Origin: a virus
Length of the DNA stretch: 38,030 bases
Virus record (IMG/VR): IMGVR_UViG_3300036790_000214
Span: 1 to 38,030 of that record
Strand: one strand, 5' to 3'
In this document: positions 178 through 38,030 of the stretch, piece after piece
Layout of the letters: every line of letters starts with the position of its first letter
Position numbering within the stretch: the first letter of the stretch is position 1
Notes under the pieces: generated by a model
Told to the model about the DNA's origin: nothing
Database searches by the model: none
Seen by the model: only the letters and a program-made list of their open reading frames with translations
Position numbers and translations under genes: made by a program

Positions 178-480
178 TTAAACGCCTAGATCCATTATTT
201 CGCCCGTTTCTGGGTCTATTGACCCAATAGGCCTGGGAATTGTTTCACGTGGAACATTGTTTTCTAGTGGGTCGAGGATTTCGTAAGTGGTTAAGGCCAA
301 CAACTTCCGCGCTCTCGGCTCCGTGTTCATCCCAATATCGCTCCTCTTCCAATCATCACACCATCGACATCTCATGATCGCTGAAAAGACTTTGTTTTCC
401 GTCCATCTCTTCACAATCACCCAGCGATGCTTGCAAAAAGGCGCAATTCCATCCCCAGACCCCTCTTTAACGATAGACAT
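178..480 (-). CDS. Variable small zinc-finger-like protein, allele A
   Basis: This 100-residue protein of unknown function has a central CRWC cysteine pair and a conserved C-terminal motif of the type SID-PETGEIMD. A homologue (allele B, 37579-37857) sits at the other contig end with a CRYC pair and the same SIDxETGEI tail, but most of the rest differs. The ATG at 480 is chosen over an upstream in-frame GTG because a TTGACA/TAAATA promoter (489-517) ends 8 bases before it. No Shine-Dalgarno is present, so the mRNA is probably almost leaderless. The coding region contains an exact parS palindrome at 241-256. Both flanks are invariant between the two ends, so the gene behaves as a hypervariable cassette in a fixed slot. 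Function unknown. Confidence 0.75.
   Translation of the reverse strand: MSIVKEGSGDGIAPFCKHRWVIVKRWTENKVFSAIMRCRWCDDWKRSDIGMNTEPRARKLLALTTYEILDPLENNVPRETIPRPIGSIDPETGEIMDLGV
241..256. promoter_or_regulatory. parS: parS-like centromere site (exact match)
   Basis: The sequence is TGTTTCACGTGGAACA. Its reverse complement, TGTTCCACGTGAAACA, is the Bacillus subtilis chromosomal parS consensus bound by ParB, which is conserved across most bacteria. It lies within the coding sequence of the variable gene (residues reading NVPRET). No ParA or ParB gene is seen in the window, so any binding would be by host ParB. Allele B lacks the site. Confidence 0.75.
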
Positions 481-488
481 TCGCAAGC

Positions 489-517
489 TATTTATCACTC
501 TCACGCCCGTTTGTCAA
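489..517 (-). promoter_or_regulatory. Sigma70-type promoter for the variable gene (allele A)
   Basis: On the minus strand, TTGACA (517-512), a 17-base spacer ending in TGA, then TAAATA (494-489). The predicted start of transcription is about 482, and the ATG is at 480. The same layout recurs before allele B at 37869-37897. Confidence 0.75.
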
Positions 518-3808: not shown

Positions 3809-4298
3809 GCGCTCGGGCCAAGGCGATGAGTTCGCGGAGTGTGGTAGCTAAGCCCATATGAACATACTTTTCAATATAGTTAATAGTCTCATCCTTCTTT
3901 TTTTCCACCGCCGAGGAAGACCGTATAACGCCATCGTGGATGCAGTTGGAGTGATTGCACTTCTCCGGTTCCGGCGCGGGCTTATGTTCGCATTTCATTC
4001 CGCATGAACAAGTCAGAAATAGATTTGGACATTCGGTCTTCTGAAATTCGTCGGGGAGACGTAATCGAACGCCACAGATTTGCCACCATGGGGAATAATC
4101 AAGCACTGCTATTTCCTCTTTTATATTTCCTTGATCGCTATTATCTGAGAATAAGATTCTATCGCCTTTCTTAATCGGCTGGCACATCGCGTCGAGGACG
4201 CGCATAGAAATTAAATCATCACACATCCCATCGATATGTTTTCCGGGATGGCCACCAAAGTATTTTTTAACCAGCGGGTTTTCGAGTAGTGGATTCAT
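3801..4298 (-). CDS. Hypothetical protein, first gene of the leftward operon
   Basis: A 165-residue protein of unknown function. The middle contains CSCGMKCEH and a second cluster CNHSNCIH, together a plausible zinc-binding region around residues 95-120. The N-terminus and C-terminus look helical. I choose ATG 4298 because the -10 box (4310-4305) ends six bases before it. An in-frame upstream start would lie upstream of the promoter. AAGGTGA overlaps the -10 box, so the site could be read either as leaderless or with a very short leader. It is transcribed divergently from the ribbon-helix-helix regulator. Confidence 0.65.
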   Translation of the reverse strand: MNPLLENPLVKKYFGGHPGKHIDGMCDDLISMRVLDAMCQPIKKGDRILFSDNSDQGNIKEEIAVLDYSPWWQICGVRLRLPDEFQKTECPNLFLTCSCGMKCEHKPAPEPEKCNHSNCIHDGVIRSSSAVEKKKDETINYIEKYVHMGLATTLRELIALARAHD

Positions 4299-4304
4299 GC
4301 TCAC

Positions 4305-4333
4305 CTTATATAAAACGCTTGCAAAGGTGTCAA
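4305..4333 (-). promoter_or_regulatory. Leftward promoter, interlocked with the rightward one
   Basis: On the minus strand, TTGACA (4333-4328), 17 bases, TATAAG (4310-4305). It overlaps the rightward promoter at 4319-4347, so RNA polymerase can occupy only one at a time. The ATG at 4298 is six bases after the -10 box. Confidence 0.75.
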
Positions 4334-4347
4334 GCAAATGTTATAAG
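4319..4347 (+). promoter_or_regulatory. Rightward early promoter
   Basis: TTGCAA (4319-4324), 17-base spacer, TATAAG (4342-4347). The first gene (ATG 4367) has an AGGAGG at 4354-4359, so this transcript has a normal leader of about 13 bases. It overlaps the leftward promoter by 15 bases, which makes the region a likely genetic switch. Confidence 0.7.
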
Positions 4348-4366
4348 CATTTCAGGAGGCCACACT

Positions 4367-4537
4367 ATGGCAACAAAAAATAAAGAGATCACGATAGGAT
4401 TCAGAGTCAAACCGCAGGAGCGCAAATACCTCGACAGAAAAGCCGACGAGCGAGGCCAGAAACTTTCCGATTATATTCGAAATCTTCTTTTACCCTCTGG
4501 CGTCGTGATTGACTCAGACGGCAAAATAAGAGCTTGA
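4367..4537 (+). CDS. Ribbon-helix-helix DNA-binding regulator
   Basis: The 56-residue sequence has the Arc/CopG fold pattern: a short strand (EITIGFRVK, residues 7-15), helix 1 (PQERKYLDRKADERG) and helix 2 (KLSDYIRNLLL). Proteins of this family dimerise and insert the strand into the DNA major groove. An upstream in-frame ATG exists, but the AGGAGG at 4354-4359 fixes the start at 4367. The gene sits beside two interlocked divergent promoters, so the most likely role is a repressor or switch at 4305-4347. Its stop codon TGA is inside the -35 box of the next promoter. Confidence 0.8.
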   Translation: MATKNKEITIGFRVKPQERKYLDRKADERGQKLSDYIRNLLLPSGVVIDSDGKIRA

Positions 4538-7495: not shown

Positions 7496-7599
7496 AAATC
7501 CTGTTTGATCTGGTGTTGGGTCCGGTTCTTGTGGTGCTGATTGCGGTGTCGTGGCTTGGAACCTGTTTGTCATGGAAAAACTTAAAAGGAGACTTATGA
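7492..7599 (+). CDS. Small single-span membrane protein (35 aa)
   Basis: ATGA overlap with the previous gene, and the stop overlaps the next ATG. Residues 4-27 form one hydrophobic helix (LVLGPVLVVLIAVSWLG). An internal AAAAGGAG near its end serves as ribosome site for the next gene. Confidence 0.55.
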   Translation: MKILFDLVLGPVLVVLIAVSWLGTCLSWKNLKGDL

Positions 7600-7925
7600 A
7601 AACTCAGTTAATCGAAAAATTAGTTGAACAATTACTTAACGAAAAAGAACCGAAATGGAATGGTGACGATCTACCGTTTATCGTTGGAAAAGCCTATCTG
7701 ATCCGAACCGTTACCTATCACATGCTCGGAGTCCTTGAACGAGTATCTGGCGCATTTCTAGTATTAAAAGAGGCCTCATGGGTAGCCGATTCAGGGAAAT
7801 TTTCAACTGCTATTGCAAAAGGGGAATTGTCTGAAATCGAATATGTGGGCGACGCTATTGTTTCCATGAACGCTATCGTCGATGCTTTTCCTTGGATTGC
7901 TAAAGTTCCTAGGGAAACAAAATGA
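7596..7925 (+). CDS. Conserved-looking hypothetical protein
   Basis: A 109-residue, mostly acidic protein reading GKAYLIRTVTYHMLGVLERVSGAFLVLKEASWVADSGKF. This resembles a family of small phage proteins predicted to adopt a beta-rich fold, function unknown. The ATG at 7596 follows AAAAGGAG; earlier in-frame starts are less well placed. TGA overlaps the next ATG. Confidence 0.65.
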   Translation: MKTQLIEKLVEQLLNEKEPKWNGDDLPFIVGKAYLIRTVTYHMLGVLERVSGAFLVLKEASWVADSGKFSTAIAKGELSEIEYVGDAIVSMNAIVDAFPWIAKVPRETK

Positions 7926-8110
7926 CTCCCGTCATTGGCAATATAAATACGTTATGGAGCAGGAGCAGGAGCGGGAGCTGGAGCGGGAGCTGGAGCTGGA
8001 GCAGGAGCGGGAGCAGGAGCGGGAGCTGGAGCGGGAGCTGGAGCTGGAGCAGGAGCGGGAGCAGGAGCTGGAGCTGGAGCAGGAGCGGGAGCAGGAGCGG
8101 GAGCAATTAA
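7922..8110 (+). CDS. Ser-X dipeptide repeat protein (one reading of the GGAGCN array)
   Basis: The ATG overlaps the previous stop (ATGA), as is usual in this operon. After 12 ordinary residues the sequence is an alternation of Ser with Arg, Gly or Trp, 25 times. The frame is open across the repeat and ends just after it. Coupling supports translation, but the absence of C in the variable repeat base favours another frame (see 7954-8115). Function unknown. Confidence 0.4.
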   Translation: MTPVIGNINTLWSRSRSGSWSGSWSWSRSGSRSGSWSGSWSWSRSGSRSWSWSRSGSRSGSN

Positions 8111-8115
8111 CTTAG
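7954..8115 (+). CDS. Glu-X repeat protein, predicted single alpha-helix (alternative reading)
   Basis: Starts at ATG 7954 just before the repeat. The product is an alternation of Glu with Gln, Arg or Leu for about 50 residues, a charged composition typical of long stable helices. In this frame the variable base selects CAG, CGG or CTG. The fourth choice, C, would give proline and never occurs in 25 units, which suggests selection on this frame. There is no good Shine-Dalgarno, so translation is uncertain. Confidence 0.4.
   Translation: MEQEQERELERELELEQEREQERELERELELEQEREQELELEQEREQEREQLT
7956..8105. repeat. 25 tandem copies of the hexamer GGAGCN
   Basis: Exactly 150 bases in 25 unbroken units. 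Only the sixth base varies and it is A, G or T, never C. All forward frames are open. Higher-order units, such as a block repeated from 7956-8003 to 8004-8051, suggest growth by duplication. Confidence 0.95.
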
Positions 8116-8122
8116 AACTTCC

Positions 8123-28192: not shown

Positions 28193-28425
28193 AACGACCT
28201 CCTATTTTGTGAAAAAGTACGCTTTCGGTGTTTTGTAATAGAAAAACTCTTTGGTTTTCGGATCAATCCTTCTTTTTTTAATATCTCGGACATGAGCCGT
28301 GCTTCCTTTGGCGTCAATGGGGTTTTCCTGCCCGAACTCAAAAAGACGGCAAGTATCACGATCATCAGGAGCCATATAGCAATTCCCGCAAAGCCATAGA
28401 CCATGTTCGTAATGAAGAGTCCCAT
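28189..28425 (-). CDS. Small membrane protein overlapping a zinc-ribbon frame
   Basis: 78 residues from ATG 28425 (a TTG start adds one residue). One transmembrane helix (YGFAGIAIWLLMIVILAVFLSS, residues 10-31) and a basic tail (KHRKRTFSQNRR). The stop overlaps the ATG of the next gene (ATGA). It shares almost all its DNA with the zinc-ribbon gene at 28202-28456 in another frame. Confidence 0.5.
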   Translation of the reverse strand: MGLFITNMVYGFAGIAIWLLMIVILAVFLSSGRKTPLTPKEARLMSEILKKEGLIRKPKSFSITKHRKRTFSQNRRSL

Positions 28426-28456
28426 CAAATTGTTGGCACTTTCCGCAATGTTCCAT
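28202..28456 (-). CDS. Zinc-ribbon-like protein overlapping a membrane-protein frame
   Basis: 84 residues from ATG 28456, whose start lies inside a parS-like palindrome. CGKCQQFDG and LCGNCYMAPDDRDTC give a C-x2-C...C-x2-C ribbon. It ends just before the ribosome site of the coiled-coil gene. The twin layout with 8123-8378 is striking. No family assigned. Confidence 0.5.
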   Translation of the reverse strand: MEHCGKCQQFDGTLHYEHGLWLCGNCYMAPDDRDTCRLFEFGQENPIDAKGSTAHVRDIKKRRIDPKTKEFFYYKTPKAYFFTK

Positions 28457-28464
28457 GTGAAACA
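28449..28464. promoter_or_regulatory. parS-like site with one mismatch
   Basis: TGTTCCATGTGAAACA differs from the consensus TGTTCCACGTGAAACA only at the central C. It lies between the 28468-28496 terminator and the next gene, and includes the start codon of the zinc-ribbon gene. ParB binding would be expected to be weak. Confidence 0.45.
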
Positions 28465-28496
28465 AAACCCCGGAAGGGTGTTAAAGCCTTCCGGGG
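28459..28496 (-). terminator. Intrinsic terminator after the capsid gene group
   Basis: A perfect 10-bp stem (CCCCGGAAGG with CCTTCCGGGG) and a 9-base loop; on the minus strand it is followed by TTTTGTTTC. It should stop or attenuate transcription coming from the coat genes before the coiled-coil and adaptor genes. Confidence 0.85.
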
Positions 28497-37364: not shown

Positions 37365-37445
37365 CGGGATTTAGAACTATAAATATGGGGGTGAGGGCGG
37401 AAGTACCCCGGATGGGTGGCGGGGGAGTCAAACACGGATGGTTTG
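37365..37445. repeat. Terminal direct repeat, copy 2 (first part)
   Basis: Identical to bases 1-81. Divergence begins at 37446, where the two alleles of the variable cassette start. Confidence 0.95.
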
Positions 37446-37578: not shown

Positions 37579-37857
37579 TTAGACACCATTATCCAGTATT
37601 TCTCCGGTTTCAGCATCAATCGACCTCGGTTCGAGGCTGGGATTATCCGTTTTCGATGTCTCATTTTCTAATCCGGAGGAGTAACGCCATACAACATCAT
37701 GCGCCAGTTGCCCCGCTTTCATCTCAAACGCTCCCCATCGAATCGTCCCGCAATATCGACAGCTCTGCACAAACCGATCCCGCGCCGTCGTCGTAAACTT
37801 CAAAATCGACCACTTGTGCTGCCCTCCATTCTTCGATGTCCGACATGGAAAACTCAT
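37579..37857 (-). CDS. Variable small zinc-finger-like protein, allele B
   Basis: 92 residues from ATG 37857 (a GTG seven codons upstream overlaps the -10 region). CRYC pair and the tail SIDAETGEILDNGV match allele A, and the HKW...RDRFVQSCRYC segment aligns with HRW...AIMRCRWC. The rest differs and the parS site is absent. A TTGACA/TAAAAA promoter is upstream. It is the other allele of the same locus, seen because the circular genome was assembled through two strain versions. Confidence 0.75.
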   Translation of the reverse strand: MSFPCRTSKNGGQHKWSILKFTTTARDRFVQSCRYCGTIRWGAFEMKAGQLAHDVVWRYSSGLENETSKTDNPSLEPRSIDAETGEILDNGV

Positions 37858-37868
37858 ATCCCTACCCG

Positions 37869-37897
37869 TTTTTATCACTCATTCGCAAGAATGTCAA
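37869..37897 (-). promoter_or_regulatory. Sigma70-type promoter for allele B
   Basis: On the minus strand, TTGACA (37897-37892), 17 bases, TAAAAA (37874-37869). The upstream GAGTGATAAA element is shared with the allele A promoter although the neighbouring bases differ. Confidence 0.7.
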
Positions 37898-37903
37898 GGA
37901 AAC

Positions 37904-38030
37904 CATAGGCTAGGAAGCTCGAGGAGCTAAACGGCATACTCTGGCCCGTTCCGCAAGGATTCGGCCCGCCTCGCGCATCCTATCCGATACTTTCCTGCGT
38001 TTACGGGCCTTCAGGAAGCGGCAGGCAACG
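37904..38030. repeat. Terminal direct repeat, copy 2 (second part, 127 bases)
   Basis: Identical to bases 544-670; it is the last 127 bases of the contig and holds the 3' end of the gene annotated at 550-900, cut by the contig end. Confidence 0.95.
37910..38030 (-). CDS. Partial duplicate of the 550-900 gene (contig end)
   Basis: The C-terminal 39 codons and stop of the gene at 550-900 reappear here because the contig ends overlap. It is not a second gene; the basic C-terminus is identical. Confidence 0.85.
   Translation of the reverse strand, partial: VACRFLKARKRRKVSDRMREAGRILAERARVCRLAPRAS

Follow-up and report, generated by a model that had tools for sequence, protein, structure and literature searches.

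The window analysed here (the whole 38,030 nucleotides of IMG/VR virus record IMGVR_UViG_3300036790_000214) is a tailed-phage sequence that carries one exact parS site of the bacterial chromosomal type and encodes no recognizable ParB. Judged from its sequence, the site is probably a true parS of the chromosomal type that selection maintains in a ParB-less phage and that would load the host's ParB for segregation or positioning of the phage genome. The two parts of this reading differ in strength: that the site is a selected host-ParB site is very likely, while its use in segregation or positioning, argued from analogy, is roughly an even call. What the sequence shows is the site itself, that a second allele of the gene in which it lies does not have it, that a diverged homologue has kept it, that parS is enriched in phages and that the phage lacks a ParB.

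The parS site and the variable gene that carries it

The earlier note had recognized in this gene an exact reverse complement of the consensus parS, and we indeed find zero mismatches to it (Table 1). On its other strand the site also fits the Bacillus subtilis consensus TGTTNCACGTGAAACA (PMC7022226), although, unlike bacterial chromosomal sites, it lies on a viral genome with no parAB locus. From base composition, 1.5e-4 chance matches are expected in the whole window, which agrees with the note's estimate of about one in several thousand. Translated with the gene, the site falls within the protein context ..ENNVPRETIPRPIGSIDPETGEIMDLGV.

Table 1. The parS site and the variable region at the two contig ends.
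Feature	Position	Strand	Description
parS	241-256	.	TGTTTCACGTGGAACA, consensus TGTTNCACGTGNAACA; inside ORF 178-504(-), read there as N-V-P-R-E-T-I
Allele A of the variable small gene	178-504	-	108 aa, CRWC motif; tail NVPRETI encoded by parS
Allele B of the variable small gene	37579-37878	-	99 aa, without parS
Flank common to both alleles	1-81 (= 37365-37445)	.	81 bp, 100% identity, noncoding
Other flank common to both alleles	540-670 (= 37900-38030)	.	131 bp, 99% identity; within the next gene, 550-900

The contig represents a circle of about 37.36 kb, opened inside the variable region, and its ends hold both alleles. Between the shared flanks lie two quite different sequences, whose proteins are nonetheless related (31% identity over 85 residues). 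Allele B has no parS match even when up to three mismatches are allowed, so that the site is, as had been proposed, confined to allele A; the presence of allele B in the same assembly indicates that parS is dispensable. The noncoding flank, which separates the variable gene from the late genes and is partly conserved in related loci (L225, L226 and L227), is a candidate packaging site or promoter. A second parS-like sequence, TGTTTCACATGGAACA at 28449-28464 on the minus strand, overlaps the start of a conserved gene (ORF 28202-28465) and has one mismatch, within the CACGTG core. As this core variant occurs in none of the 1.06 Mb of parS-bearing viral loci and the candidate is absent in relatives, we excluded it from the site count; it is probably a chance match.

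About a dozen related viral records were gathered by terminase, portal and head-protein searches. The allele A protein, used as a query, returned nothing usable in IMG/VR or the phage records, and homologues of the variable gene were reached through the portal relatives. The earlier note had suggested searching related phages, naming loss of the site at synonymous positions in close relatives with the same allele as the result that would speak against it; what we found in one relative, G056, is the opposite. This genome (38,019 bases; portal 82% and head protein 89% identical to those of the window phage) has an exact parS, TGTTCCACGTGGAACA, at G056:32767-32782 (= L226:5238), in the tail of its variable-gene homologue (L226:4999-5307), 3.8 kb before the portal gene. 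The two variable-gene proteins are only 32% identical over 81 residues, and their aligned codons outside parS share about 44% of nucleotides, whereas within parS the V, P, R, T and I codons are identical (coding strands AATGTTCCACGTGAAACAATTC in the window and ATTGTTCCACGTGGAACAATTC in G056, read as V-P-R-E/G-T-I). Comparison of the gene tails of G056/L226 and the window (KPIVPRGTIRDIDTESG against NNVPRETIPRPIGSIDPETGE) places the two sites in the same tail region rather than in a proven identical column, since a gap of about five codons is needed before the shared IDxExG motif.

Homologues without parS are allele B and those of L225 and L227, and because the last ends before the tail and has no site, parS is optional in this gene family. 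Among the relatives G055, G057, G058, G001-G003 and G059-G063, several of which are fragments, no parS was present within two mismatches; retention is thus seen in the homologous gene of G056 and not in allele B or these other relatives.

Otherwise the window has a tailed-phage gene set, including genes for a primase-polymerase/helicase, a Sak4-like annealing protein, a cytosine methyltransferase, an SU10-like portal with its adaptor, the terminase and the major head protein. The claim that the phage has no ParB proved correct, as did everything else in the earlier note's description that sequence can check: no ParB_N domain (PF02195) was detected in the window at E<=1. None of the 14 Pfam families to which window proteins matched is a ParA family either, so the ParA and ParB pair that marks a phage-plasmid with its own parABS is not encoded. 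Integrase, repressor and partition families are likewise absent from the matches (all 14 Pfam families; for PHROG, the first 25 of 48), so nothing here directly supports a stable plasmid-like state. The window contains no tRNA genes, and hence no hint of the host from them, and a portal-alignment search of genome contigs found no prophage or host. Two further features of the window are an array of a 6-bp GGAGCN unit at 7956-8116 (~160 bp), between ORF 7551-7925 and the methyltransferase gene, and a NikA-like match (PF21983, E=1e-8) in one protein, probably that of the small ORF 4289-4537 on the plus strand.

parS across phage and viral sequence collections

Among 50,697 INPHARED phage records, TGTTTCACGTGGAACA is present in 147, TGTTTCACGTGAAACA in 286 and TGTTCCACGTGGAACA in 58, counts that are not independent events, because related genomes are counted repeatedly. 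The control 16-mers TGTTTGACGTCGAACA and TGTTTCTCGAGAAACA occur in none of the 50,697 records, and the chance expectation in these 2.3 billion bases is about one match per 16-mer. Groups bearing the site include phages of Bacillus (phi29-like), Listeria, Microbacterium, Arthrobacter, Gordonia, Pseudomonas, Stenotrophomonas and Lactobacillus, as well as microviruses. Escherichia and Salmonella phages, which make up a large share of the phage collection, fall outside the ten commonest names in all three parS lists. To our knowledge, chromosomal parB is missing in these two hosts, and the absence of their phages from the commonest names fits this. Klebsiella contributes 10 records to one of the lists, several of them RaK2-like giant phages.

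Individual records differ in the number and placement of their sites. The inovirus bajarodino virus 6 (L256, PQ006149.1, 5.9 kb) has six exact copies of TGTTTCACGTGAAACA, at 635, 662, 1414, 2857, 4096 and 5628, nearly all of them between annotated genes. In Pseudomonas phage phiPsa374 (L257, KJ409772.2) parS lies at 389-404, in the direct terminal repeat, and in Vibrio phage phi 3 (KP280063.1; 821 and 2934) it lies in the left terminal repeat; sites so placed would perhaps be in the first DNA to enter the cell.

The viral contigs of IMG/VR were scanned with the pattern TGTTTSACGTSGAACA, which covers parS together with three core-swapped 16-mers of equal chance that serve as built-in controls. 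Among the 120 stretches listed for this pattern, 117 had the parS core, two GACGTC, one GACGTG and none CACGTC. In the first unbiased scan, 138 of the 145 sites among the matches listed had Y at position 5 and R at position 12, a combination expected by chance in one quarter. Beyond the 16-mer itself, 136 distinct sites showed a symmetrical preference for T at +1 (146/272 half-sites, p=4e-22), +2 (p=1e-14) and +3 (p=7e-4), and nothing from +4 on. A flanking signal that fades by +4 resembles the border of a protein footprint rather than a trace of shared ancestry.

Many of the viral sites lie within long phage genes of various kinds, encoding terminase, portal, DNA polymerase, baseplate wedge, ribonucleotide reductase and tail-associated transglycosylase. 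The reading frame across parS also varies, giving V-S/P-R-E/G-T, F-H-V-K/E-H or C-x-T-W-N. With parS in unrelated genes and different frames, no single peptide accounts for the sites, which argues that selection acts on the DNA. ParB (TIGR00180) scored above the cut-off in none of 100 parS-bearing viral records, many of which are fragments, with weak matches in seven. Most loci have a single parS (105 of 120, among the matches listed); one 116.7-kb contig, L150, has eleven matches to TGTTTSACGTSGAACA.

Probable host ParB recruitment and its alternatives

The enrichment of parS in phages, together with phage phi29, strongly suggests that the window site recruits host ParB. In combining a host-type parS with the lack of a ParB, the window phage joins phi29's kind. 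Virulent and with no annotated ParB, the Bacillus phage phi29 (Salasvirus) has four exact copies of TGTTTCACGTGGAACA, partly within structural genes; the window too combines exact TGTTTCACGTGGAACA with the lack of an encoded ParB. In phi29, the host's ParB, Spo0J, traps the phage chromosome in spores (Meijer et al. 2005, cited by PMC9437464). However, phi29 belongs to an unrelated phage group and has four sites, whereas the window phage has one, on one allele of a small variable gene.

Other elements resemble the window phage in part. SGI1 is a mobile element that exploits the parABS of IncC plasmids for its own stability, as described in PMC10954446, and is thus stabilized through the partition system of another replicon; that system, however, comes from a helper plasmid, while the window carries a site like those of host chromosomes. 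Extrachromosomal prophages and phage-plasmids also have a partition site on the phage genome, but they encode their own partition proteins for the cognate site. Finally, a single parS, together with the chromosomal par genes, stabilizes otherwise unstable plasmids (PMC7022226).

By analogy with phi29 and these parS-stabilized plasmids, host ParB would bind the phage parS when the phage DNA enters the cell or in the course of a prolonged infection, form a closed CTP-dependent clamp and slide onto adjacent phage DNA, connecting the phage genome to the host's ParA and SMC. The phage DNA might then be positioned in the cell, or travel with the chromosome into daughter cells or a dormant cell, as in phi29. 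Such positioning or inheritance would serve a slow or stalled infection. Segregation or positioning is in our view the likeliest among the uses of the site, with titration of ParB and regulation by ParB spreading as less probable alternatives.

The first of these alternatives, that phage parS multiplied by replication acts as a decoy, titrating ParB off the host chromosome so that disturbed segregation or SMC loading favours the phage, draws on the same sequence evidence as segregation or positioning. Phage copies could exceed the chromosomal sites in number, and elements with many sites do exist, as the inovirus and L150 illustrate. Titration would favour arrays of sites, however, and the prevalence of single sites, one of them in the window, speaks mildly against a decoy, which we consider unlikely.

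A little less probable still is that spreading host ParB represses or times nearby phage genes, thereby coupling them to the host cell cycle. The candidate targets would be the end of the leftward operon, the conserved noncoding stretch and the late genes, and parS does adjoin that stretch, ahead of the late genes. There are precedents for both elements of this idea: KorB, a ParB-family protein, silences genes at a distance (PMC11790492), and phages use the host regulators Spo0A and CtrA (PMC9437464). Nevertheless, the window parS lies inside a coding tail, and the sites of other phages are scattered over genes of every kind and have no neighbour in common.

We regard it as very improbable that the site arose by chance, or is held by a constraint on the VPRxTI tail motif of the protein, and has no role with ParB. 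Allele B and most relatives do manage without the site, but both the low chance expectation and the exact second site in G056, with its identical synonymous positions, weigh against coincidence. So does the control rate, about 1 to 2% among such 16-mers in the viral contigs (matches listed), and the peptide motif is missing in the other homologues. Least credible is that the parS stretch is host chromosome joined to a phage contig: the two alleles at the contig ends do represent variants merged by assembly, but both flanks are common to the two alleles, and homologues of allele A occur at the same place in three related viral records, that of G056 having parS.

Breadth and significance

Beyond the window, displaying the host's centromere could be a general, so far unrecognized phage strategy reaching well beyond sporulating Bacillus, a proposition that we find evenly balanced. 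On that reading, and with the same even weight, unrelated virulent tailed phages and single-stranded DNA phages would carry host-type parS without ParB, and the host's ParB and SMC would treat phage DNA as chromosome; some populations would, just as arguably, switch the parS trait by exchanging small-gene alleles. In the open-access literature we found the phi29 precedent and no survey of host-type parS in phages, a weak negative, as earlier reports may exist. Similarly weak is our failure to find there a description of the breadth of the phenomenon or of allele-wise presence within one population.

Alleles A and B form a natural pair with and without parS. If the sites do load host ParB, then phi29, Listeria, Microbacterium and Pseudomonas phages, microviruses and inoviruses would all exploit the segregation of the host chromosome, and parS would give one means of studying, across these groups, how virulent phages persist when the host divides or goes dormant.
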